Shown: positions 1 to 45,636 of the stretch, in pieces
Numbering within the stretch: position 1 is the first letter of the stretch
Layout of the letters: every line of letters begins with the position of its first letter
Notes under the pieces: model-generated
The model's input: only the letters and a program-made list of their open reading frames with translations
What the model was told of the DNA's origin: nothing
Databases searched by the model: none
Assembly: GCA_021810565.1 (NCBI GenBank)
Contig: JAJZIM010000014.1
Coordinates: 1 to 58,812 of the forward strand
Length of the DNA: 58,812 nucleotides
Source: Bacillota bacterium
Lineage (GTDB): Bacteria; Bacillota; Sulfobacillia; JAJZIM01
Direction of reading: 5' to 3'
Translations under genes and position numbers: made by a program

Positions 1-81
<81 letters not shown>

Positions 82-118
82 ACGGTTCGTTGCCTCGCTC
101 ACTTCAAGCGCGCTGTTT

Positions 119-132
119 GGTTTTCAAAGACC
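119..132 (-). promoter_or_regulatory. boxA-like antitermination element of the rRNA leader
   Basis: The minus strand reads GGTCTTTGAAAACC about 40 bases before the 16S start. It resembles the TCTTTGAAAACT sequence common in Firmicutes rRNA leaders and the boxA sites bound by NusB/NusE. The match is by eye. Confidence 0.45.
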
Positions 133-152
133 AAGGGATCCGACAGGGGCTA

Positions 153-181
153 ACTTTAACACGGCCGCTGGGCCGTGTCAA
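153..181 (-). promoter_or_regulatory. rRNA operon promoter with palindromic spacer
   Basis: On the minus strand TTGACA (181-176) and TAAAGT (158-153) are separated by exactly 17 bases, as expected for a sigma-A promoter, with transcription starting near base 146 toward the 16S gene. The spacer is mostly an inverted repeat, ACACGGCC (159-166) against GGCCGTGT (171-178). It could also act as a terminator or processing hairpin for the upstream tRNA genes, although no clear T tract follows. Confidence 0.7.
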
Positions 182-193
182 GCAGGAAATGTG

Positions 194-269
194 TGGTGGC
201 CCAAACGGGAGTCGAACCCGTGTTACCGCATTGAGAGCGCGGCGTCCTAGGCCTCTAGACGATTGGGCC
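194..269 (-). tRNA. tRNA-Glu (CTC anticodon)
   Basis: The 76-base minus-strand gene folds into a full cloverleaf: acceptor GGCCCAA at the 5' end pairs with TTGGGCC before encoded CCA, anticodon stem CCGCG/TGCGG encloses loop CTCTCAA, and the T arm contains GGTTCGACTCC. The anticodon is CTC, which reads GAG. It lies 7 bases downstream of tRNA-Gln and upstream of the 16S promoter, so the two tRNAs are probably made from one transcript. Confidence 0.96.
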
Positions 270-276
270 GCATCGC

Positions 277-350
277 TGGCTGGGGAGGAAGGATTCGAAC
301 CCTCACTGACAGAGCCAGAATCTGTAGTGCTACCTTTACACTACTCCCCA
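277..350 (-). tRNA. tRNA-Gln (CTG anticodon)
   Basis: A 74-base minus-strand cloverleaf: acceptor TGGGGAG/CTCCCCA with encoded CCA, anticodon stem ACAGA/TCTGT and loop TTCTGGC, giving anticodon CTG (codon CAG), T arm GGTTCGAATCC. It follows the selenoprotein gene and gltX on the same strand. The glutamate and glutamine tRNAs beside gltX fit an organism that may charge tRNA-Gln by the GluRS/GatCAB route; the last point is inference. Confidence 0.96.
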
Positions 351-398
351 GCGCGCCGCCTATTATAGCACGGCCCCGGCCGGGGGGCAAGCCGTTTC

Positions 399-716
399 TC
401 AGCGGCAATCCACGCAGGCTGCGGGCAGTTGCACCCCGGAAACCGTCAGGCTGGAGAACCCGAGGATGCGCCGCGTGCGGATCTCCACTCCCTCGGGCAG
501 CACCGGCAACCCGCGGGGCATGAATACCTGCACCCCATCCACCTCGCAGCGCTCGTAGCCCTCCTCCTGCGCCGGGCGGCCCAGCTTCACCGAAGCCGGG
601 ATGACGCTGCCGCCCCCTCAGCCGCCGCTTAGGACCACCGGCGCCAACACGGTCAGCACGCCGCCCTTCTTGCGCACGAACTCTCCCGCCTCCGGCTGCA
701 CGCGCACCTGAGCCAT
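399..716 (-). CDS. small selenoprotein, CC/Se-motif type, with in-frame TGA (Sec33)
   Basis: A 105-residue protein is obtained when the in-frame TGA at 620-618 is read as selenocysteine. The start ATG (716) has a strong ribosome site AAGGAAGGTGG. The residues around the TGA read LSGG-U-GGS, and the C-terminus ends AACVDCR, giving a possible redox-active CxxC. Reading continues in frame without other stops to TGA at 399. A GC-rich hairpin directly follows the UGA. From memory the protein resembles the uncharacterised family annotated as CC/Se motif (seleno)protein in Moorella-like Firmicutes; its function is unknown. It starts 35 bases after gltX and is probably cotranscribed with it. A conventional annotation would start at Met43 (codon at 590) and lose the Sec. 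Confidence 0.85.
574..617 (-). promoter_or_regulatory. SECIS-like hairpin of the CC/Se selenoprotein
   Basis: Immediately after the UGA, GGGCGGC (615-609) pairs with GCCGCCC (580-574), AGC pairs with GCU inside it, and an apical CCG-GCUU-CGG loop caps the structure. Position and size fit a bacterial SECIS element read by SelB. Pairing was found by hand, without an energy calculation. Confidence 0.55.
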
Positions 717-751
717 GCCATCCACCTTCCTTGTTATTTTCTCTCCCCGAA

Positions 752-2224
752 TTATACCACGTTTTCCTCCAACCAGCGCTGCGCCCGCGCCAGCCGGTCC
801 AGCACCCGCTCGCGGCCCAGCAGCTCCAGCAGTTCGAACAGACCCGGCCCCATCGTGCGGCCCGTCACCGCCAGACGCACCGGGTGGATCAACGCTCCCC
901 GCGGCACCCCCCGCGCCGCGGCCAAGTCGCTGAAGGCGGCCTCCAGCGCCGCGGCCGTGAATTCCTCCGCCCCCGCCAGGCGCTCCCGCACGGCGGCCAA
1001 GAGCTCGGCCGCCCCCTCCCCCCGAAAGTGTTTGCGCACACCCTTCTCATCGTAGCCCTCCACCGGGCGGAAGAAGTAGTCGGCCAAGGCGGCCAGCTCC
1101 TCTAGGGTGTGGGCCCGTTCCCGTAAAAGCCCCACCACCCGCTCCAAATACTCCTGTTGCGGTCCCGCCAACTCCTCCGGGATCAACCCGGCGCGCCGCA
1201 GGAAGGGCGTCACGGCCCGGGCCAAAGCGGCGACCGCCATCTCCCGCAGGTAGATGGCGTTGAGCCAGGTCAGCTTCTGCACGTCGTAGACGGCGGCATT
1301 GTGGGTCACCCGCCCCAGGTCGAAATGCGCCACCATGAAGCCGCGGTCCATCTTCTCGGTCACCCCGTCGGGCGACCAGCCCAGAAGGGCCAGGTAGTTC
1401 ACCATGGCCTGCGGCAGAAAGCCCTGCTGCCGGAATTCTTCCAACGAGGTGGCTCCGTGCCGTTTGGACAACTTGGACCGGTCGGGAGCCAGGATCATGG
1501 GCACATGGGCGAAGCGCGGCGGCTCCTCCCCCAGGACCGCATAGAGCAGCAGTTGTTTGGGAGTGTTGGACAGGTGCTCCTCCGCCCGGACCACGTGGCT
1601 TATGCGCATGGCCGCGTCGTCCACCACGCAGGCGAAGTTGTAGGTGGGCATGCCGTCGGACTTCCAGAGGATGAAATCGTCCAGCACGGCGTTCTCGAAG
1701 CTCACCGAGCCCCGGATCAGGTCGTCCACCACCGTGGCCCCCGCCGCGGGAACGCGCAGGCGCAGCACGGGCTCGATGCCCCGCCCTTCCCGGTCGGAAC
1801 GCTCCTGCCGGGAGAGCGCGCGGCAGCGCCCGTCGTAGCGCGGGGGGCGCCCCGCCCGTCGCGCCTCCTCCCGCCGCGCCGCCAGCTCCTCAGGCGTGCA
1901 GTAGCAGGGATAGACCGCGCCCGCCTCCTCCAGTCGGTGCAGGTATTCCCGGTACACCGGCAGGCGCTGGGACTGATAGTAGGGCCCGTAGTCTCCCCCC
2001 CGCTCCGGTCCCTCATCCCAGTCCAGCTCCAGCCAGCGCATTCCCTCCAGAATCCCGCGGGCCGATTCCTCCCGAGAACGCGAGCGGTCGGTGTCCTCGA
2101 TGCGCAGCACCATGCGGCCGCCGTGGTGGCGGGCGAATAGCCAATTGAAGAGCGCCGTGCGGGCACCGCCGACATGCAGAGACCCCGTGGGACTCGGCGC
2201 AAACCGGACCCGGACCTGTGCCAC
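752..2224 (-). CDS. gltX: glutamate--tRNA ligase
   Basis: A cytoplasmic class I aminoacyl-tRNA synthetase that charges tRNA-Glu, and in many Firmicutes also tRNA-Gln before amidation. The 490-residue length is typical. The N-terminus reads RFAPSPTGSLHVGG (HIGH-type signature), and KLSKRHG is the KMSKS loop. A zinc-like cluster CYC appears near residue 108. The start is GTG, giving MAQVRVRFAPSP. A promoter lies just upstream (2283-2255), overlapping the end of bofA. The gene is followed by the small selenoprotein and by tRNA-Gln and tRNA-Glu, which are its likely substrates. Confidence 0.97.
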   Translation of the reverse strand: MAQVRVRFAPSPTGSLHVGGARTALFNWLFARHHGGRMVLRIEDTDRSRSREESARGILEGMRWLELDWDEGPERGGDYGPYYQSQRLPVYREYLHRLEEAGAVYPCYCTPEELAARREEARRAGRPPRYDGRCRALSRQERSDREGRGIEPVLRLRVPAAGATVVDDLIRGSVSFENAVLDDFILWKSDGMPTYNFACVVDDAAMRISHVVRAEEHLSNTPKQLLLYAVLGEEPPRFAHVPMILAPDRSKLSKRHGATSLEEFRQQGFLPQAMVNYLALLGWSPDGVTEKMDRGFMVAHFDLGRVTHNAAVYDVQKLTWLNAIYLREMAVAALARAVTPFLRRAGLIPEELAGPQQEYLERVVGLLRERAHTLEELAALADYFFRPVEGYDEKGVRKHFRGEGAAELLAAVRERLAGAEEFTAAALEAAFSDLAAARGVPRGALIHPVRLAVTGRTMGPGLFELLELLGRERVLDRLARAQRWLEENVV

Positions 2225-2254
2225 CCCGTCACCCCGTTCCCGAGCATTGACACC

Positions 2255-2283
2255 AGTCTAGCAAAGGGGGCCGGCGCGGTCAA
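2255..2283 (-). promoter_or_regulatory. probable gltX promoter
   Basis: Minus strand TTGACC (2283-2278), 17-base spacer, TAGACT (2260-2255), with transcription starting about 25 bases before the gltX GTG. The -35 box overlaps the bofA stop codon. Confidence 0.5.
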
Positions 2284-2561
2284 GGCATCCACACCCGCAG
2301 CGCCACCAGCAGGGCCAGGCCGGGCAAGCCCAAGACCCCCACCAGGAGGACGGTCAGGGGGTTGATGCCTACATGCACCCCGAGGGACGCCCCAGCCAGG
2401 TCCAGGACCCAGATGACCGCCCCTCCCACCGCCGCGCGCCACGCCAAACGCAGCATCCAGCCCAGGGGACGACGCAAGGCGCGCAACAAAAGCAGCGCCC
2501 CCAGGGCGGCCGGGACATACAGTCCGAGCAAGGCGTGGTTCAGGGTGATCCCCCCGACCAT
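2280..2561 (-). CDS. bofA: BofA family pro-sigma-K processing inhibitor
   Basis: A 93-residue membrane protein with two to three hydrophobic segments and the family's C-terminal block VGINPLTVLLVGVLGLPGL. In Bacillus BofA sits in the forespore outer membrane with SpoIVFA and holds the protease SpoIVFB inactive until the mother cell is ready to process pro-sigma-K. It follows yaaL by 27 bases, the usual Firmicutes pairing, although recR, the normal third partner, is not here. The gene implies endospore formation or descent from a spore former. Confidence 0.9.
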   Translation of the reverse strand: MVGGITLNHALLGLYVPAALGALLLLRALRRPLGWMLRLAWRAAVGGAVIWVLDLAGASLGVHVGINPLTVLLVGVLGLPGLALLVALRVWMP

Positions 2562-38442: not shown

Positions 38443-38900
38443 TGCGCCGGGAGCCCTTGGAGCAGGCGCGGCCGTGGCTGGACCAGGCATGGGCCGACCT
38501 GAAGGTGGCCGAAGGGCTTGAGACCACGGCTCCCTTCGCCGCTTGTTTCCACGCCCAGCAGGCGGCCGAAAAGGCGTTGAAGGCCGTCTATGTGGCCCAC
38601 GGCTTGCCCTTTCCCTGGACGCACTCCGTTCAGGAGCTCTTGCGCAGCGCGGCGCAGGAGCATCCGGAGTTGGAAGCCTTCGTGGAGGGCACGCTGCTGT
38701 TGGACAGCTTCTACACCGGCACCCGGTACCCCAGCCTCGGATTGGCTTCCCTGGAGGCTCCCGAGAAGCGCTACGCGGCCTCCCATGCCCGCCAGGCCAT
38801 CTCCACGGCACGGCCGGTGGTGGAGGCCGGTCAAAGAATCTGGGAAGAACTAGTCCGCCGGCGGCCCTCGGCGGAGGGGAAGGAGGAAGCGGGGCGATGA
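38442..38900 (+). CDS. HEPN domain protein (putative HepT-like toxin)
   Basis: A 152-residue all-helical HEPN protein. QARPWLDQAWADLKVAEGLE and AACFHAQQAAEKALKAVYVAHG are the hallmark helices, with THSVQELL afterwards. The strict RxxxxH RNase motif of HepT toxins is not evident, so this may be the PF05168 subtype that binds nucleotides. It pairs with the upstream MNT gene. Its stop overlaps the ccdA ATG (ATGA), placing a cytochrome-maturation gene under the same promoter. Confidence 0.83.
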   Translation: MRREPLEQARPWLDQAWADLKVAEGLETTAPFAACFHAQQAAEKALKAVYVAHGLPFPWTHSVQELLRSAAQEHPELEAFVEGTLLLDSFYTGTRYPSLGLASLEAPEKRYAASHARQAISTARPVVEAGQRIWEELVRRRPSAEGKEEAGR

Positions 38901-39601
38901 ACGTGTCGGTGGCCGCAGCCTTCGGGGCGGGTCTCGTGTCCTTCGTGTCCCCCTGCGTGTTGCCCCTCATCCCCACCTATATCACCTACCTGGCCGGCAG
39001 CTCGGTGGAGGAGTTGAACCGCGAGGCCTTGTCGGGTATGGCCCGCCGGCTGCTCCTGAACGCCCTGCTTTTCGTGGCCGGCTTCTCCCTGGTGTTCATT
39101 CTCCTGGGGGTGGCGGCCACCGGCATCGACCGGCTGCTCCTGGCCTTTCACGACCCGCGCCTGTTGGACGAGGTGGCGGGGGTGGTGGTGATCTTCTTCG
39201 GCCTGCAGTTGATGGGCGTCTTCCGCCTGGGCTTCCTGCAGCGGGAGAAGCGCTGGGAGTATCGGCCCGGCAAGGCGGGCCCCCTCAACTCCTTCCTCAT
39301 CGGCCTGGCCTTCTCCCTGGGCTGGACGCCCTGCGTGGCGCCGATCCTGGCCTCCATCCTTTCCCTGGCGGGCACCAGCGGTCAGACGGGTTATGGAGCG
39401 TACCTGCTGGCGATCTACTCCGCGGGGCTGGCCGTGCCCTTCCTCCTGACGGCCTTCTCCCTGCGCTGGCTCCTGCCCCTGTTCTCCCGCTGGGCGGCCT
39501 ACCTGCGCTGGGTGACGGTGGTCAGCGGCGCCCTATTGGTGATCCTGGGCGTGCTGATCTTCCGGGGCGAGTTCATCCTGCTGTCGGGGCTGTCGGCCTG
39601 A
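38897..39601 (+). CDS. ccdA: cytochrome c biogenesis protein CcdA
   Basis: A 234-residue membrane protein with six hydrophobic segments and the two redox cysteines, in FVSPCVLPLIPTYITYLAG and FSLGWTPCVAPILAS. CcdA passes electrons from cytoplasmic thioredoxin to extracytoplasmic thiol-disulfide proteins of the ResA/TlpA class. The adjacent downstream gene encodes exactly such a membrane-tethered thioredoxin, so the two likely form one reducing pathway for haem c attachment or spore-coat disulfides. Confidence 0.94.
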   Translation: MNVSVAAAFGAGLVSFVSPCVLPLIPTYITYLAGSSVEELNREALSGMARRLLLNALLFVAGFSLVFILLGVAATGIDRLLLAFHDPRLLDEVAGVVVIFFGLQLMGVFRLGFLQREKRWEYRPGKAGPLNSFLIGLAFSLGWTPCVAPILASILSLAGTSGQTGYGAYLLAIYSAGLAVPFLLTAFSLRWLLPLFSRWAAYLRWVTVVSGALLVILGVLIFRGEFILLSGLSA

Positions 39602-39602
39602 G

Positions 39603-40868
39603 ATGGTGACCTACGCCGCCTTCGTGCACCTGGGTCCCCTCACCGTGTCTCTCTTCGGCCTGACGGCCCTGGCCGGGCTGGCAGCGGCGATGGTCCTGGC
39701 GGGGAGGGGAACGGCGCGCTTCGGGCTGCCCCGGGAGTCCGCGGGAGACCTGATCTTCGCGGCCGGCGTGGGGGCGGTGGTCCTCGGCAAGCTTTGGCCC
39801 TGGCTGCAGGGCGGGCTGGTCGGCGGGGTCGGCGGGCTGGTTTTCGGGCCGGTGTCCTCTCTCGGGGCGGCGTTGGGCGGGGCGGCGGGCCTGGGGTGGG
39901 CGCTGTGGCGGAGTCGGCTGGCGCCGCGGCCGGCCTTGGAGTCGCTCTTGGCCCCCCTGGCCGGCGGGGCGGCGGTGGCGCTACTGGGCTGGGACCGCTA
40001 CGGTCCGGCCTGGAGCGGGCCGGGGGCGGTGCAAATCGGCGGGGCGCGCCTGCTCCCCCTGCCGCTGCTGGCCGCCCTTGGCTCCTGGGCGCTTTTCGCC
40101 TGGCTGTGGCAGGGGCCGCCCCGGGAGGTGCTTCCCCGGGCGCTGGCGGGCGGCGGGGCGGTGGTGCTATTGCTGGACGAGGTGACGCGATTCTCTCTCC
40201 TGTCCATCTGGTGGCCCTTGGCGGCCCTGGCGGTGGGAGGGTGGCGGTGGCGATGGGAAGGAGGTTCACGGATGCAGGACGGGGTGCAGACGACGGAGGA
40301 GAGGCAGCAGACGACCGGAGGGCCGCAAAGCGGCGGCTCGCGCTGGCGGGGCCGAGGCCTGATCATCGGCGTCGTGGCGGTGCTGATCCTGGGCGGAGCC
40401 GCCGCCTGGGCCCTGAAGGCGCCGGCGAAGGTCCAAGTTGGTCCCCTGCCGGGGATGACTGCGCCCAACTTCACCTTGCCGGAGCTGTCCGGGGGGAGCC
40501 TTTCCCTGGCCTCCCTGCGCGGGCATCCGGTGTACGTGAATATCTGGGCCACCTGGTGCCCGCCCTGCCGGGCGGAGATCCCCAACCTGATCCGACTGAA
40601 GAAGCAGTACGGATCGCGGCTAACCATCGTGGGAGTGGCGGAGCCGGGCACGGGGGTGACCCCCGCCTCGGTGGCCGCCTTCGTCAAGCAGGAGAAGATG
40701 AACTACCCGGTGCTCTTGGACCTGTCGGCCCAAGTGGGCAACCAATACCTGGTCAGCGCCATCCCCACCAGCATCTTCATCAACGCCAAGGGACAGGTGG
40801 TGCAGCGCTTCACGGGAGAGATGACCCTGCCGCTGATGCGCCAGTACGTCAAGAGCATCCTGCCTTGA
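39603..40868 (+). CDS. fusion of Lgt-like membrane domain and TlpA/ResA-type thioredoxin
   Basis: A 421-residue protein. Residues 1-215 hold about six hydrophobic segments and resemble the prolipoprotein diacylglyceryl transferase fold (FVHLGPLTVSLFGLTALAGL, then GKLWPWLQGG), but the conserved Lgt Arg/His catalytic residues are not evident. A charged linker (220-250) and another transmembrane helix (GLIIGVVAVLILGGAAAWAL) lead to a thioredoxin domain with VYVNIWATWCPPCRAEIPNL and cis-Pro in SAIPTSIFINAKG. It is expected outside the membrane, reduced by CcdA one base upstream. The enzymatic role of the first domain is unknown. Confidence 0.82.
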   Translation: MVTYAAFVHLGPLTVSLFGLTALAGLAAAMVLAGRGTARFGLPRESAGDLIFAAGVGAVVLGKLWPWLQGGLVGGVGGLVFGPVSSLGAALGGAAGLGWALWRSRLAPRPALESLLAPLAGGAAVALLGWDRYGPAWSGPGAVQIGGARLLPLPLLAALGSWALFAWLWQGPPREVLPRALAGGGAVVLLLDEVTRFSLLSIWWPLAALAVGGWRWRWEGGSRMQDGVQTTEERQQTTGGPQSGGSRWRGRGLIIGVVAVLILGGAAAWALKAPAKVQVGPLPGMTAPNFTLPELSGGSLSLASLRGHPVYVNIWATWCPPCRAEIPNLIRLKKQYGSRLTIVGVAEPGTGVTPASVAAFVKQEKMNYPVLLDLSAQVGNQYLVSAIPTSIFINAKGQVVQRFTGEMTLPLMRQYVKSILP

Positions 40869-40933
40869 GGCGGGTGGGAGTCTATCTGGCCGGGGCGCTG
40901 TTGCTGGCGGCGGCCTTCTACCTGATGCACTAG
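40865..40933 (+). CDS. possible small single-span membrane peptide
   Basis: A 22-codon frame begins at TTG 40865, overlapping the thioredoxin fusion stop (TTGA), and encodes MRRVGVYLAGALLLAAAFYL plus MH: two arginines then a single hydrophobic helix. The coupling geometry is the one used by many real genes in this window. No family is recognised, and chance cannot be excluded at this length. Confidence 0.4.
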   Translation: MRRVGVYLAGALLLAAAFYLMH

Positions 40934-41304
40934 CGGGGTGGGCGGCGCGCTTCGGCGATCCGTTGCGCTGCCAGCTCCGCCAGGCGCCGGTCCACCCCCA
41001 GGTGGCGGGCGAAGGTAACCTCCAGCCCGGGAAAGCGCTCCCGCAGCGTTTGGATCTGGCCGGGGATATCCCGCCGCACGTGCATCCCCGGGAAGAGGAA
41101 GAAGGGCATCACCACGACTTGGCGCGCGCCGGCGGCGGCCAAGCGGCTCACCGCCTCCTCCAAAGACGGCCGGGCCAGCTCCATGAAGGCCGGCTCCACC
41201 ACGGGCCACCCGGTGTGCTCCCGGATCAGGCGGGCCACGGCGGCCAAGTCCGTGTTGGCTTGGGCGGAGCGGCTGCCGTGGCCCAGCAGGACTACGGGCA
41301 CCAT
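40930..41304 (-). CDS. cbiX: CbiX-type sirohydrochlorin cobalto-/ferrochelatase
   Basis: A short 124-residue, single-domain chelatase (CbiX-S type; SirB is twice as long) with VVLLGHGSRSAQANTDLAAV carrying the metal-binding His and VVMPFFLFPGMHVRRDIPGQ with the second. It inserts Co2+ or Fe2+ into sirohydrochlorin on the way to cobalamin or sirohaem. The upstream cobalamin riboswitch argues for the cobalt pathway. ATG 41304 has GGGAGG about 12 bases upstream; TTG 41313 is less well spaced. Confidence 0.9.
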   Translation of the reverse strand: MVPVVLLGHGSRSAQANTDLAAVARLIREHTGWPVVEPAFMELARPSLEEAVSRLAAAGARQVVVMPFFLFPGMHVRRDIPGQIQTLRERFPGLEVTFARHLGVDRRLAELAAQRIAEARRPPR

Positions 41305-41329
41305 CGGACGCAAAACCTCCCTTGTGCTG

Positions 41330-41361
41330 AAAAGCCCCCGCCGCGCAGGCGAGGGCTTTTC
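41330..41361 (-). terminator. riboswitch-controlled terminator upstream of cbiX
   Basis: On the minus strand AAAAGCCCTCGCC pairs with GGCGGGGGCTTTT around a TGCGC loop and ends in a T run, between the cobalamin aptamer and cbiX: a transcription attenuator. Confidence 0.8.
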
Positions 41362-41400
41362 GGGTGAGAGGCTCTCCCTGTGCCGCGCAGGTCGAAGCGC

Positions 41401-41510
41401 AAGGCCCAGAGCGCAGGTTCCTGGCTGGCGGTCCGGAAAGAACCGCTCACAGTTGCGGGACAGCGCCGGATTCGCACCGGCTTCCCTGGCCGCTCTCGGC
41501 CGAGGCCTAT
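41401..41510 (-). promoter_or_regulatory. cobalamin riboswitch
   Basis: The minus strand shows the conserved core GGGAAGCCGGTGCGAATCC followed by CCGCAACTGTGA and the B12 box AGCCAGGAACCTGCGC (41426-41411), closed by an AGGCC/GGCCT stem. It should repress cbiX when adenosylcobalamin is high. The rest of the 378-base gap 41305-41682 holds the terminator and the presumed divergent promoters, including TTGGCT-N18-TATCCT before selD. Confidence 0.92.
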
Positions 41511-41682
41511 TTTTCCCCCAGACTTCGCCGCGCCGGCCGCTTTCTCCTGCCGGGGGGAGAGATATAAGCGGAGAGAAAGGGGTTTCGCGCAATTCGAACC
41601 TCACGGTTATGAATGGCGGCGCATTCGGCATTGGCTCCCCGCCCCTTCCTGTGCTATCCTCAATCCGAGGGGGGACGCGGCC

Positions 41683-42714
41683 ATGGCGGAGCCCGAGCTC
41701 ACCACCTACTCGCCCGGATCGGGGTGAGGGTGCAAGATAGGTCCGGCGGACCTGGAGGAGATCCTGCGCCTTTTGCCCCGGAGCACCGACCCGAATCTGC
41801 TGGCGGGGCGGCACGACGACGCCGCGGTGTACCGGCTGACGGAGGACCTGGCCCTGGTGCAGACGGTGGACTTCATCACCCCCGTGGTGGATGATCCCTA
41901 CGACTTCGGGGCCGTGGCGGCGGCCAACGCTTTAAGCGACGTCTACGCCGTGGGGGGACGGCCGCTGTTGGCCTTGAACCTGGTCAGCTACCCGGTGCGC
42001 ACCCTGCCCTTGGGCACCCTGAACCGGACCCTGCAGGGGGGGGCGGAAAAGGCGGCCGAGGCGGGGGTGTGCATCGCGGGGGGACACTCGGTGGACCTGC
42101 CCGTGCCCGTGTACGGCTTGGCGGTGACCGGCACGGTGGATCCGCGCCGGATGGTGGGCAAGGGCGGCGGTCGGGCGGGGGACCGGCTCTACCTGACCAA
42201 GCCCCTGGGAAGCGGGGCCTTGGCCACGGCGGCCGACCGGCGCCTGTTGGGGGAGGAGGAGGTGGCCCTCCTGGTGCGAACCATGGCGCAACTCAACGCC
42301 GGGGCCAGCCGGGCCATGCTGGCCGCGGGGGCCCGCGCGGCCACGGACGTGACCGGCTTCGGCCTTTTGGGCCACCTGCACGAGCTGGCCCGGGAGAGCG
42401 CGCTGGCCGCGCGGCTTCAGGCCGGGGCGGTTCCCTACCTGAAGGGGGCGGTGGCGGCGGTGGCCCGGGGAGCGGTGTGCACCGGCACCCGCAACAACCA
42501 GAGCTTCGCCGCGGGGTTCACCCTATGGCGGGCCCATCCGCCGCGGGAGGAGCAGGTCCTCTTGTGCGACGCCCAGACCTCGGGAGGGCTGTTGATCGCC
42601 GTGGCGCCGGAGGATGCCGGGACGTTGGAGGAGCACCTCGCCCGGGAGGGCGTTCCCGGGTGGCCCGTGGGCGAGCTGACCCAGGGCCGGCCCGGTGCCG
42701 TGGAAGTGGTGTGA
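41683..42714 (+). CDS. selD: selenide, water dikinase SelD, itself a selenoprotein (Sec15)
   Basis: Makes selenophosphate, the Se donor for Sec-tRNA, from selenide and ATP. ATG 41683 (GAGGGGGG upstream) opens a 343-residue frame in which TGA 41725-41727 occupies the catalytic position: YSPGSG-U-GCKIGP, where other SelDs have Cys or Sec. Downstream motifs AVYRLTEDLALVQTVDF, AVAAANALSDVYAVGG, GGHSVD and ATDVTGFGLLGHL confirm the family. Annotation that stops at TGA would begin at Met31 and lose the active site. A hairpin follows the UGA. It leads a plus-strand group with TusA-like and DsrE-like genes. Confidence 0.93.
41728..41775 (+). promoter_or_regulatory. SECIS-like hairpin in selD
   Basis: About 11 bases after the UGA, AGGUCC-GGC-GGACCU forms a perfect stem-loop, with an outer GGUGCA/UGCGCC pairing around it. 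Location and size fit a bacterial SECIS. Drawn by hand. Confidence 0.6.
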
Positions 42715-42727
42715 GAGGAGGAGCGTG

Positions 42728-42961
42728 ATGGAGGTGCAGGAAGTGGTGGATGCCCGGGGACGCCGGTGCCCTTGGGGCATCGTGGAGGCGGGGAAGCGGT
42801 TTCGGAACCTGGCGGCGGGGACGGTGCTGGCCATCGACAGCGACGATCCGGTTTCCGCCACCCAGGTGCCGGCCTGGTGCCAATTGACGGGGCACGAGTA
42901 CCTGGGGGAGGAGGCCGCCGCCGCCGGGTGCACCCGCTACCTGGTGCGCCGGAAGGAATAG
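42728..42961 (+). CDS. TusA-family sulfur carrier protein with variant CPWG motif
   Basis: A 77-residue TusA/SirA fold protein: VVDARGRRCPWGIVEAGKRF, then AAGTVLAIDSDDPVSATQVPAWC. The persulfide-carrying Cys is present, but the usual CPxP is CPWG. TusA proteins hand sulfane sulfur between enzymes; beside selD, a selenium-carrier role is conceivable. GAGGAGGAG precedes ATG 42728, 13 bases after selD. Confidence 0.88.
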   Translation: MEVQEVVDARGRRCPWGIVEAGKRFRNLAAGTVLAIDSDDPVSATQVPAWCQLTGHEYLGEEAAAAGCTRYLVRRKE

Positions 42962-42963
42962 CC

Positions 42964-43437
42964 ATGGCGGGCAAGGTGACCATCCTTTTGACGGATGACA
43001 GCCTGGACAAGGCGTGCGTGGCCTTCAACGTGGCCCTGGGGGCCGCGGCGGCGGAGAAGGAGGTGGCCATCTTCTTCACCTGCTGGAGCCTGCGGGTGCT
43101 GCGCCGGGCAGGGCGCTCCGCCGGGCGGGGGCTTGTGCCGCGGATGATGGATTGGACCACCCGGGGCGGGGCGGCGCGGCTGCCCCTGTCCCGCTGGAAC
43201 TTCTTCGGCCTGGGGGCGTGGATGATGCGCCGCGCCATGCGCCGGGGACACCTCGACCTGGTGCCGCAGCAGATCGCCACCGCCCGGGAGCTGGGCGTGA
43301 AGTTCTATGTGTGCGACAAGCCGGCCCAGCTCTTCGGGCTGGGCCTGGAGGACCTGCTGCCGGTGGTGGACGGGGTGGTGGGGGTACCCTCCCTGCTCCT
43401 TTGGACCACCACCTCCCAGACCACCCTGTGCTTCTAG
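42964..43437 (+). CDS. DsrE/DsrF/DrsH-like (DsrE3-type) sulfur-transfer protein
   Basis: A 157-residue protein of the DsrE3/DrsH type: KVTILLTDDSLDKACVAFNVALGAAA, EVAIFFTCWSLRVLR, ARELGVKFYVCDKPAQLFGL and DGVVGVPSLLLWT. Two conserved Cys (FFTCWSL and FYVCDKP) are the likely sulfur-binding residues. DsrE3 with TusA forms a cytoplasmic sulfur-transfer pair in sulfur oxidisers. It lies two bases after the TusA-like gene and ends at a palindromic terminator. Confidence 0.85.
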   Translation: MAGKVTILLTDDSLDKACVAFNVALGAAAAEKEVAIFFTCWSLRVLRRAGRSAGRGLVPRMMDWTTRGGAARLPLSRWNFFGLGAWMMRRAMRRGHLDLVPQQIATARELGVKFYVCDKPAQLFGLGLEDLLPVVDGVVGVPSLLLWTTTSQTTLCF

Positions 43438-43447
43438 CGGAAATACC

Positions 43448-43473
43448 GGGGGGCCTGCCGCGGCAGGCCCCCC
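43448..43473. terminator. 26-base perfect palindrome between convergent genes
   Basis: GGGGGGCCTGCCG is followed directly by its exact reverse complement. It separates the selD-DsrE3 unit (plus) from the OsmC end of the minus operon and probably stops transcription both ways, although no T tract is present. Confidence 0.6.
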
Positions 43474-43497
43474 AGTGACGTACGCTGGCCGACCGCC

Positions 43498-44019
43498 TCA
43501 GGCGAGGCGCGCCGACAGCCGCACGGGATGGGTCAGGCAGAAGGAGGCGGGGCAGCGCTCCTCGGCCTCGCGCAGCACCTCGGCCAGCGCTTCGGGCGAG
43601 GCATCTCCCTGCGCTTGCACCACCAGGCGCACCTCCTCCATGATGGGTCGCTGGGACAGGCCGAGGGTGCGGGACAGGTCCAGGTCCATCTCGGCCGCAG
43701 TCTCCAGGCGGGACAGTTCTATGCCCTGCTCAGCGGCCAGGGTGGCGAAGGTGGCGGTGAAGCAGGCGGCCAGCCCGAAGAGCGCGTATTGAATCGGACC
43801 GGGGCGGCTGCCGGAACCGCCGAGGAAGGGAGGCTGGTCGGCCTCCAGAGAGACGCTGCCCCCCGGCAGGCCGACTTGGGCGCGAAACTGCGGCTCTCCC
43901 GGAGTGAAGCTCCAGGCTCCCTCCAGGCGCTGGGTGCGCCGGGCCTGGGCCGGATCCGTGGCCGCCGCCTGCTGGAAGCGGCGCAGGGCCGCCAGATCCA
44001 CCTTGTTTTGCTCCGCCAT
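43498..44019 (-). CDS. OsmC family protein
   Basis: A 173-residue OsmC-fold protein: FLGGSGSRPGPIQYALFGLAACFTATF, containing the first reactive Cys in AACF, and a second in CPASFCLTHPV. OsmC/Ohr proteins reduce organic peroxides with cysteines; members in sulfur clusters may bind acyl-persulfide or act on sulfur species. It is the last gene of the minus operon, 44 bases after the lipoate-binding protein, with AAAGGAG upstream of ATG 44019. Confidence 0.9.
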   Translation of the reverse strand: MAEQNKVDLAALRRFQQAAATDPAQARRTQRLEGAWSFTPGEPQFRAQVGLPGGSVSLEADQPPFLGGSGSRPGPIQYALFGLAACFTATFATLAAEQGIELSRLETAAEMDLDLSRTLGLSQRPIMEEVRLVVQAQGDASPEALAEVLREAEERCPASFCLTHPVRLSARLA

Positions 44020-44063
44020 TCGGTCAACGCTCCTTTGCCTAGAATTTTGACGGAAAAGTCGGC

Positions 44064-44504
44064 CTACTTCAGGAAGCCCTCCCGGCGGTAGCGCTCCAGC
44101 TCCTCCGCCAGGAAGGCGTCCACGGCCTCGGGACCGTGGACCAATCCCTCCAGATCCTGCGGGTCGGTGGGCTCCAGCACCGACAGCCAGCCCTCGCCGT
44201 AAGGATCCGTGTTCACCAGGCCGGGCTGCTCCAGCACCCGGGGGTTGACCTGGACCACCGTTCCGCCCGCGGGGGAACGCAGGGCGCCCACGAACTTGCC
44301 GGCCTCCATGGACCCCAAAAGCTTCCCCCGCAGCACGGCGCTGCCCGGGGGCTTGAGTTGCACATGCTTCACCTCCCCTGCCGCCGCCTGCCCGATGGCG
44401 TCCAGGCCCACGCGCCAAAGCTTGCCCTCGGGTCGCACCCAAAGGTGGTGCTGCCGGTCGTAGTGGAGCTCGTCCGGCAGTTGGTAGCCGCTGGCTTCAG
44501 CCAT
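44064..44504 (-). CDS. GcvH-like lipoate-binding protein (LbpA type)
   Basis: A 146-residue lipoyl-domain protein like glycine-cleavage H protein: DRQHHLWVRPEGKLWRVGLD, AAGEVKHVQLKPPGS and LGSMEAGKFVGALRSP, with Lys70 as the lipoylation site. No other glycine-cleavage gene is present. In sulfur oxidisers LbpA proteins carry sulfur on lipoate for the sHdr complex. It overlaps the stop of the iron-sulfur gene by eight bases, so the two products likely work together. Specific LbpA function is inferred from context. Confidence 0.85.
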   Translation of the reverse strand: MAEASGYQLPDELHYDRQHHLWVRPEGKLWRVGLDAIGQAAAGEVKHVQLKPPGSAVLRGKLLGSMEAGKFVGALRSPAGGTVVQVNPRVLEQPGLVNTDPYGEGWLSVLEPTDPQDLEGLVHGPEAVDAFLAEELERYRREGFLK

Positions 44505-45636
44505 TTGATGATCCCTCCTGGCGTGATCGTTGGAGGATCTGGGCCAGGTCCCACACGGGGAGCTCCTCCCCCAGGCGGTGGAGACCCTCCTGGAGCATCC
44601 GCTGGCACTGGGGGCAGGCGGTGGCCACCGCCTGCGGCGCGGTCTCCCGCACCATCCGCGCGAGGCCCGCCGCCACCTCCCCCGCCGCCGCGGCGTCGCG
44701 CATCTCGAAATCGCCACCCCCGCCGCAGCACACCCCGTCCAGGTGGTGCTCGGGCAGCTCCCTGAGCTTAAGCCCCGGCACCGCCGCCAAGAGGCGCCGG
44801 GGCGCCTCGAAGACCCCGCAGCCGCGCCCCAGGTCGCACGGGTCGTGATAGGTGACGCTCAGGTTCAACGGGCCCAGAGCGAGCCGGCCCTCCCGCACCA
44901 GAGCGTCCAGGAACTCGGCGGCGGAGAGCAGTTCCACCTGCGTCACGCCGTAGTGTTCCCGCCACTCCCGCAGGCAGGAGGGGCAGGTGAACACCACTCT
45001 TTGGGCGCCGATGGCCGCCAGGCGCTCCAGGTTGTGGCGGCGCAGGGCCTCGGTCTGGGGCGCGAGGCCGGCCACCCGCAGCGGAAAACCGCAGCACCAC
45101 TCCTCTCCCCCCGCCAGGGTGAAGTCCACCCCGGCGGCGGTCAAAAGCCGGGCGAAGTCCTGGGGGATGCCCTGCACCGCCGGGGAGAAGGAGGAGACGC
45201 AGCCCACGTAGTAGAGCACTTCGGCCCGGGGGCGGGTGAAGGCGTCGGCGGGGGCGTCGGTCATGAAGGCCACCCACTCGGCCCGCTCGTCGTTGGGCAG
45301 GTCGAAGACGTTCTTGGCCGCGTCCACCGTCCGGGCGAGCCGCTCCACGAAAGGCGGCGCGGTGGCGGCCTCGACGGCCTTGCCCCGCAGGTGGTGCCAC
45401 AGGGCCGGCAGGTCGTAGTCCACGGGGCAGACCTGAGCGCAGCGGCCGCAAAGGGTGCAGTCGTAGCGGCGGCCCGCCGCCCCCAGGTCGCGCCTTCCCT
45501 CCGCCGCCGAGCGCAACCGCCCGCGCGGGGAGGACGACTCCCATCCCAGGACGGCATAGGTGGGGCACACCGCGTTGCAGTAGCCGCAGCGGGCGCACGC
45601 GGCGAAATCGCTGGCCGAGGAAGGCACACGTGGCAT
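44497..45636 (-). CDS. GlcF/HdrD-like iron-sulfur protein with two CCG domains
   Basis: A 379-residue protein with two 4Fe-4S sites (C14, C17, C20, C24 and C60, C63, C66, C70, each CxxCxxCxxxCP), then two cysteine-rich CCG domains: CVSS with EEWCCGFPLR, and HDPCDLGRGCG with VCCGGGGDFEMRD. This is the layout of glycolate-oxidase GlcF and heterodisulfide reductase HdrD/HdrCB; CCG domains bind the non-cubane clusters that act on disulfides. Partner candidates are the adjacent lipoate-binding protein and the GlcD-like flavoprotein of the divergent operon. Confidence 0.88.
   Translation of the reverse strand: MPRVPSSASDFAACARCGYCNAVCPTYAVLGWESSSPRGRLRSAAEGRRDLGAAGRRYDCTLCGRCAQVCPVDYDLPALWHHLRGKAVEAATAPPFVERLARTVDAAKNVFDLPNDERAEWVAFMTDAPADAFTRPRAEVLYYVGCVSSFSPAVQGIPQDFARLLTAAGVDFTLAGGEEWCCGFPLRVAGLAPQTEALRRHNLERLAAIGAQRVVFTCPSCLREWREHYGVTQVELLSAAEFLDALVREGRLALGPLNLSVTYHDPCDLGRGCGVFEAPRRLLAAVPGLKLRELPEHHLDGVCCGGGGDFEMRDAAAAGEVAAGLARMVRETAPQAVATACPQCQRMLQEGLHRLGEELPVWDLAQILQRSRQEGSSNG

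Follow-up and report, generated by a model that had tools for sequence, protein, structure and literature searches.

A predicted CC/Se-family selenoprotein with a likely IscA/SufA/HesB fold in a bacterium of the Sulfobacillia

The CC/Se motif family of (seleno)proteins (NF041239, Moor_selen_rel) appears in the available text of two reviews as a hypothetical protein of Moorella thermoacetica (PMC13188914, PMC9312934), one of the two giving its motif as CxxU with one Sec. Mutagenesis and 75Se labelling led to the identification of a related HesB-like selenoprotein in Methanococcus maripaludis, for which no clear function is given (PMC11097638). For IscA, with its motif CXnCGCG, the available part of a coupling analysis supports a position of the first Cys near the terminal pair at the cluster, as ligands (PMC5471300). 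In the open-access literature no paper was found linking the CC/Se family to the IscA fold or reporting adjacent Sec residues (UU) in this family.

The gene described here lies in a 58,812-nucleotide stretch of DNA, referred to as the window, from a Bacillota bacterium of the class Sulfobacillia. Its predicted product is like the NF041239 family in its full-length match above the cut-off and in Sec at the family site, but it differs from the CxxU motif, as given in the accessible review text, in having no Cys within three residues of Sec and in adding a C-terminal CxxC. The family resembles the HesB-like selenoproteins (TIGR01911, NF038090; within PF01521) in a profile-profile comparison (E 1.5e-10) with Sec aligned, although the window protein matches neither TIGR01911 nor PF01521 and is without the UxGP motif. 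IscA, SufA and ErpA (PF01521) are similar in predicted fold, in the position of their first conserved Cys, at which Sec33 is found, and in a similarly placed C-terminal Cys pair, but the window protein has CxxC where these carriers have CGC and does not reach Pfam membership.

The reading frame, its UGA codon and the family

The features of the window discussed below are as follows.

1-79, minus strand: 5' end of 16S rRNA, truncated at the contig boundary
194-269, minus strand: tRNA-Glu (CTC)
277-350, minus strand: tRNA-Gln (CTG)
362-390, minus strand: promoter-like TTGCCC-17-TATAAT preceding tRNA-Gln and lying 8 nt past the stop codon of the Sec33 gene
399-716, minus strand: predicted CC/Se-family (NF041239) selenoprotein CDS, from the frame and an NF041239 match in which both halves score
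408-419, minus strand: C-terminal CVDC (Cys100, Cys103), Cys100 aligning with the first Cys of the IscA CGC
574-615, minus strand: predicted SECIS hairpin, from folding of the sequence downstream of the UGA and synonymous-codon controls
618-620, minus strand: in-frame UGA, predicted Sec33, at the family Cys/Sec column and the position of the IscA first conserved Cys (GGC-SG)
722-730, minus strand: ribosome-site-like GGAAGGTGG upstream of the ATG, read from the sequence
752-2224, minus strand: gltX, glutamate--tRNA ligase (TIGR00464, 521 bits), 35 nt upstream of the Sec33 gene on the same strand
41698-42615, plus strand: Sec-containing selD, whose matched stretch has an in-frame TGA as its residue 10 (SGUGCKIG)

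The coding sequence runs from 716 to 399 on the minus strand, stop codon included, and would encode 105 residues with Sec33. It opens with ATG at 716-714, has an in-frame TGA at 620-618 (codon 33), the sole in-frame stop before the end, and closes with TGA at 401-399; a mechanical ORF list gives only 63 residues, starting from GTG at 590. The frame and its interrupting codon are therefore as the first-pass annotation of this DNA had described them, and the strong ribosome site proposed there has its counterpart in the ribosome-site-like sequence at 730-722. Residues 3-95 match NF041239 (E 6.1e-18, 64.7 bits against a cut-off of 40, profile positions 2-91 of 91), the only family matched by the window protein alone. 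A family profile from which the window protein had been left out gave 17.3 bits for the 32 residues preceding the TGA and 50.3 bits for those that follow it; the best place elsewhere in a six-frame search of the window scored 0.4 bits. Homologues do not begin after the TGA, and the segment upstream of it is conserved.

Searches covered 154 genomes of the class, of which 11 gave a match, and 398 of the phylum, of which 90 did, and 153 of the 155 listed places were read as the family set, two of the 153 containing TAA or TAG. At least one TGA was present in the matched region of 110 of the 153 members, and all 121 in-frame TGAs in these regions are confined to two adjacent columns, the first holding 106 of them and the second 15. 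This pair of columns is occupied by CC in 36 members, UA in 36, UC in 27, UG in 14, UU in 11 and CU in three, with rarer forms making up the remainder, and the Sec column aligns to the first Cys of CC. Alternation of Cys and Sec, the check proposed for residue 33, is thus present at exactly that column, both across the family and within the genome of the window. Where Sec occupies the first column (106 members), 22 proteins, the window protein included, have neither Cys nor another Sec at a distance of up to three residues. The first column holds neither residue in five of the 153 members; four members with AG or a gap at this position (L116, L128, L169 and L194) are possibly structural or inactive forms.

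Eleven members (L154-L164, for example L161 and L156) carry two consecutive TGA codons, corresponding to two adjacent Sec residues. Read with stops, several of these stay under the NF041239 cut-off; with Cys replacing Sec, four of the five tested pass it. They form a single branch of the tree (99/96), which counts as one origin, and several origins of the UU form were accordingly rejected. Copies of the family gene lie within about 3.5 kb of each other at L107, L165 and L120 (genomes G190, G502 and G197, respectively), and in the last of these a CC copy adjoins a CU copy. A diverse 16-sequence alignment was too variable for a genome scan; a five-sequence alignment gave 14 named loci, including loci from Moorella, Desulfofundulus and Desulfovirgula. 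A scan of viral contigs with the window protein gave 23 pattern matches, none of them a relative.

The sequence immediately following the UGA is predicted to form a SECIS-like hairpin with an outer stem GGGCGGC/GCCGCCC (7 pairs), a 9-nt 5' bulge, an inner stem CCGGCUUC/GAAGCUGG (8 pairs) and, 26 nt downstream of the UGA, an apical GGU loop (591-589). Folded alone, the 45 nt after the UGA gave -26.1 kcal/mol (z -2.56, the second lowest z among 110 Sec members), and comparison of the hairpin with synonymous-codon controls gave z -2.87. Among 5,000 synonymous recodings 0.56% were as stable and 1.06% had the GGU loop, but none combined the two. Of the 1,014 TGA triplets on both strands of the window, four have a fold of this stability after them, and the codon-33 TGA is alone in adding a GGU loop. 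Across the family, the post-UGA fold of Sec genes is more stable than that at the same place in Cys genes (mean z -0.66, n = 110, versus +0.22, n = 36; p 4e-6). The GC-rich hairpin of the earlier annotation is hence real when downstream sequence alone is folded, whereas a fold of 625-560, which includes the 5' flank, has z 0.05 and a different structure; another fold is favoured over the hairpin once at least 3 to 6 nt before the UGA are included. With the UGA in the ribosomal A site, the sequence on its 5' side is not available for folding, and for this reason the competing fold was discounted. Rfam gave no SECIS-type family in L001 or in window positions 1-2500.

The genome (3.18 Mb, 115 contigs, 99.4% complete) encodes SelA (597 bits), SelB (332 bits, or 368 with a second piece) and tRNA-Sec with anticodon TCA. 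Two SelD genes each contain one in-frame TGA, one at window position 41698-42615 on the plus strand and the other at G000:C113:5609-6535, and the in-frame TGA of the window selD is, at the level of sequence, independent evidence that this organism reads UGA as Sec. The surroundings of selD (window 38840-45636) encode a DsbD_TM (CcdA-like) protein, ResA/Redoxin-like proteins, a CbiX-domain protein, a DrsE_2 protein and an OsmC protein that comes near the OsmC_like_Se model but stays below its cut-off, and have a redox- and selenium-flavoured character. By every computational test available the window gene belongs to the CC/Se family of selenoproteins, as the first-pass annotation had proposed, the NF041239 match, the Cys/Sec alternation, the SECIS-like hairpin and the Sec machinery all being consistent with this, and judged from these sequence features it is near certain to be a selenoprotein gene.

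Predicted fold and the position of Sec33

The window protein was modelled with AlphaFold2, supplied with 14 further family sequences taken from named records. The resulting model has a pLDDT of 80.7 and a pTM of 0.69 and is least confident in the loop that holds Sec33 and at the five C-terminal residues. Top Foldseek matches of this model were SufA and IscA, the best being SufA 2d2a (E 3.3e-3, probability 1.00), and in VIA-align IscA 1r94 aligned over 84 residues with Z 8.9 and rmsd 2.7. All ten rows of the VIA-align listing are IscA, SufA, DsrR or relatives of the Fe-S/HesB kind, whether annotated or putative, and the best structural alignments show 12-14% identity to IscA and SufA. The model of a second member (L081, pLDDT 92.4) matched IscA with E 2.0e-4 in Foldseek and with Z 10.1 and rmsd 2.6 over 85 residues, its first unrelated Foldseek match appearing only at E 0.6.

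In a profile-profile comparison the family matched a set of nine Sec-containing PF01521 (HesB-like) proteins with a probability of 96.9 over 86 columns and a score of 59.0, against at most 19.5 in 60 column shuffles and 19.7 for the reversed set. With six TGA-free PF01521 (IscA-type) proteins the probability was 77 (E 2e-5), and the score of 33.2 compares with at most 15.7 in 60 column shuffles and 14.2 for the reversed set. Some family members match IscA_HesB_Se, SufA, ErpA_rel, TIGR01911 and PF01521 (Fe-S_biosyn) below cut-off, and one matches TIGR01911 and NF038090, again below cut-off. The window protein itself gave no match to PF01521, for which the best of ten family proteins scored 23.1 bits (Pfam gathering cut-off 26.3 bits), and IscA was not recovered from the PDB in a sequence-only search with a 16-member family profile. 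In the alignments Sec33 corresponds to the GGC-SG Cys of IscA, and Cys100 to the first Cys of the terminal TCGCG.

The structure predictions indicate that the CC/Se family likely has the IscA/SufA/HesB fold. Such an assignment is probably new, the reviews listing the family without a fold in their available text; the earlier description of the family as uncharacterized agrees with these reviews (PMC13188914, PMC9312934) but no longer holds for the fold, which can now be assigned.

Genomic setting and relatives

In a tree of 146 rows and 95 columns, midpoint-rooted and weakly resolved, the window protein and the two CC paralogues from the same genome form a group (98/86), and the three nest in a 16-row group of which 15 are CC (89/89, drawn open). 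The window gene thus looks like a local Cys-to-Sec switch (CC to UG), a reading of sequences under midpoint rooting and with few columns. The two Cys paralogues (SEGCCKT; L094 and L095 on contigs C26 and C18 of genome G000) are 40% and 37% identical to the Sec protein and carry C-terminal extensions without Cys. The paralogue on C18 adjoins genes for a DsbD_TM (CcdA-like) protein and a thioredoxin-fold protein. A close orthologue of the window gene did not turn up, and the genomes listed include no second one from its taxonomic family.

The six nearest ORFs were surveyed at each of the 153 places (834 ORFs). A thioredoxin-fold cluster, mostly directly downstream, accompanies 21 of 99 single-Sec members and one of 36 CC members (single-Sec versus rest, p 4.4e-4, p-values here being optimistic because the genomes are related). 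CC members have ACR3 (7/36) and ArsR (5/36) neighbours, and UU members have aldehyde:ferredoxin oxidoreductase (AFOR; 8/11), Fe-hydrogenase C-domain (7/11) and 4Fe-4S (6/11) protein neighbours. Among the six ORFs nearest to the window gene there is no thioredoxin, ACR3 or AOR, but only gltX. The placement with gltX, tRNA-Gln, tRNA-Glu and the rRNA promoter noted in the first-pass annotation is true of the window and is not conserved: a gltX homologue was found among the six nearest ORFs at none of the other 152 places. Since it occurs at one place in 153, this setting carries little functional weight and is probably incidental, and gltX linkage as a conserved operon was dropped.

The position of Sec or Cys at the IscA cluster corner, together with the thioredoxin, arsenic-efflux and AOR neighbours, points to selenol redox or soft-metal(loid) binding. 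Our preferred reading, to which we give a probability of roughly 0.6, is that the CC/Se family is a divergent branch of the IscA/SufA/HesB fold and that the window gene encodes a selenoprotein of this branch with Sec33 at the first cluster Cys, acting in selenol redox or soft-metal(loid) handling. Family, Sec codon, SECIS-like hairpin, machinery, fold and Sec position are supported by sequence and structure computations. The UGA would be decoded by SelB and tRNA-Sec via the hairpin at 615-574, and Sec33 would replace the first cluster-binding Cys of IscA and serve as a reactive nucleophile or ligand. A resolving thiol from CxxU does not fit the window member, which has no Cys within three residues of Sec33; for the same reason the Cys100/Cys103 pair, or an external thioredoxin, is invoked as the partner that may resolve or complete the Sec33 site. 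We infer the chemistry, the role of Cys100 and Cys103, the partner and the substrate, and the function most likely lies in selenol-based redox or in soft-metal (metalloid), possibly Fe-S, handling.

Alternative readings and meaning

Were the TGA a true stop, a nonsense mutation of TGC or TGT would have broken a Cys-type gene and left a pseudogene or a 63-residue C-terminal protein. The step from a Cys codon to TGA needs one base change only, the window copy is placed among Cys-type relatives in the tree and GTG at 590 opens the short ORF, but the TGA falls exactly on the family Sec column, the profile scores on both sides of it with no further in-frame stop, none of the 5,000 synonymous controls matches the hairpin with its GGU loop, and the genome has complete Sec machinery with two Sec-containing SelD genes, all of which makes such a stop scarcely credible. 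A functional tie to the tRNA/rRNA genes and gltX is also very improbable; in such a role the protein might, for instance, sense redox state or selenium and couple this to tRNA-Glu charging. The Sec33 gene does follow gltX by 35 nt on the same strand, with the tRNA promoter-like site 8 nt past its stop and no terminator-like site found between gltX, the Sec33 gene and that promoter-like site; against this, no other place has a nearby gltX homologue and the two paralogues of the same genome are located elsewhere.

A working A-type Fe-S carrier, in which Sec33, Cys100 and Cys103 rebuild CXnCGCG and the selenolate ligates the cluster in place of a missing canonical carrier, is an unlikely but not negligible reading. 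It draws on the predicted IscA fold, on the alignment of U33 and C100 with IscA Cys residues, on the ligand role that the available coupling analysis supports for the first Cys and terminal pair (PMC5471300), and on the lack of any PF01521 match in the genome of the window (99% complete), but 50 of 61 sampled genomes of the phylum are likewise without a match (11 have one). No Fe-S assembly gene adjoins, and the thiol pattern U33...C100xxC103 has the spacing CxxC rather than the CxC of the A-type carrier site. A C-terminal CxxC is found only in the window protein (1/153; any Cys in the last 20 residues, 14/153), and since the pair is missing from the other 152 members Fe-S carriage cannot be the general function of the family. 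It is speculative and unlikely that the protein carries an Fe-S cluster or a soft metal on the IscA fold through ligation by the Sec33 selenolate with Cys100/Cys103, and that the wider family forms a large overlooked Sec-using branch of this fold, including the UU form encoded beside AFOR.

The preferred reading, a divergent IscA-fold selenoprotein, offers a concrete site to test, namely a Cys/Sec pair at the first cluster Cys of a likely IscA/HesB fold. The natural series at this one site (CC, UC, CU, UU and lone U) lets the benefit of selenium be asked, and the occurrence in one genome of one Sec and two Cys copies of the same protein provides a clean case of a Sec switch.
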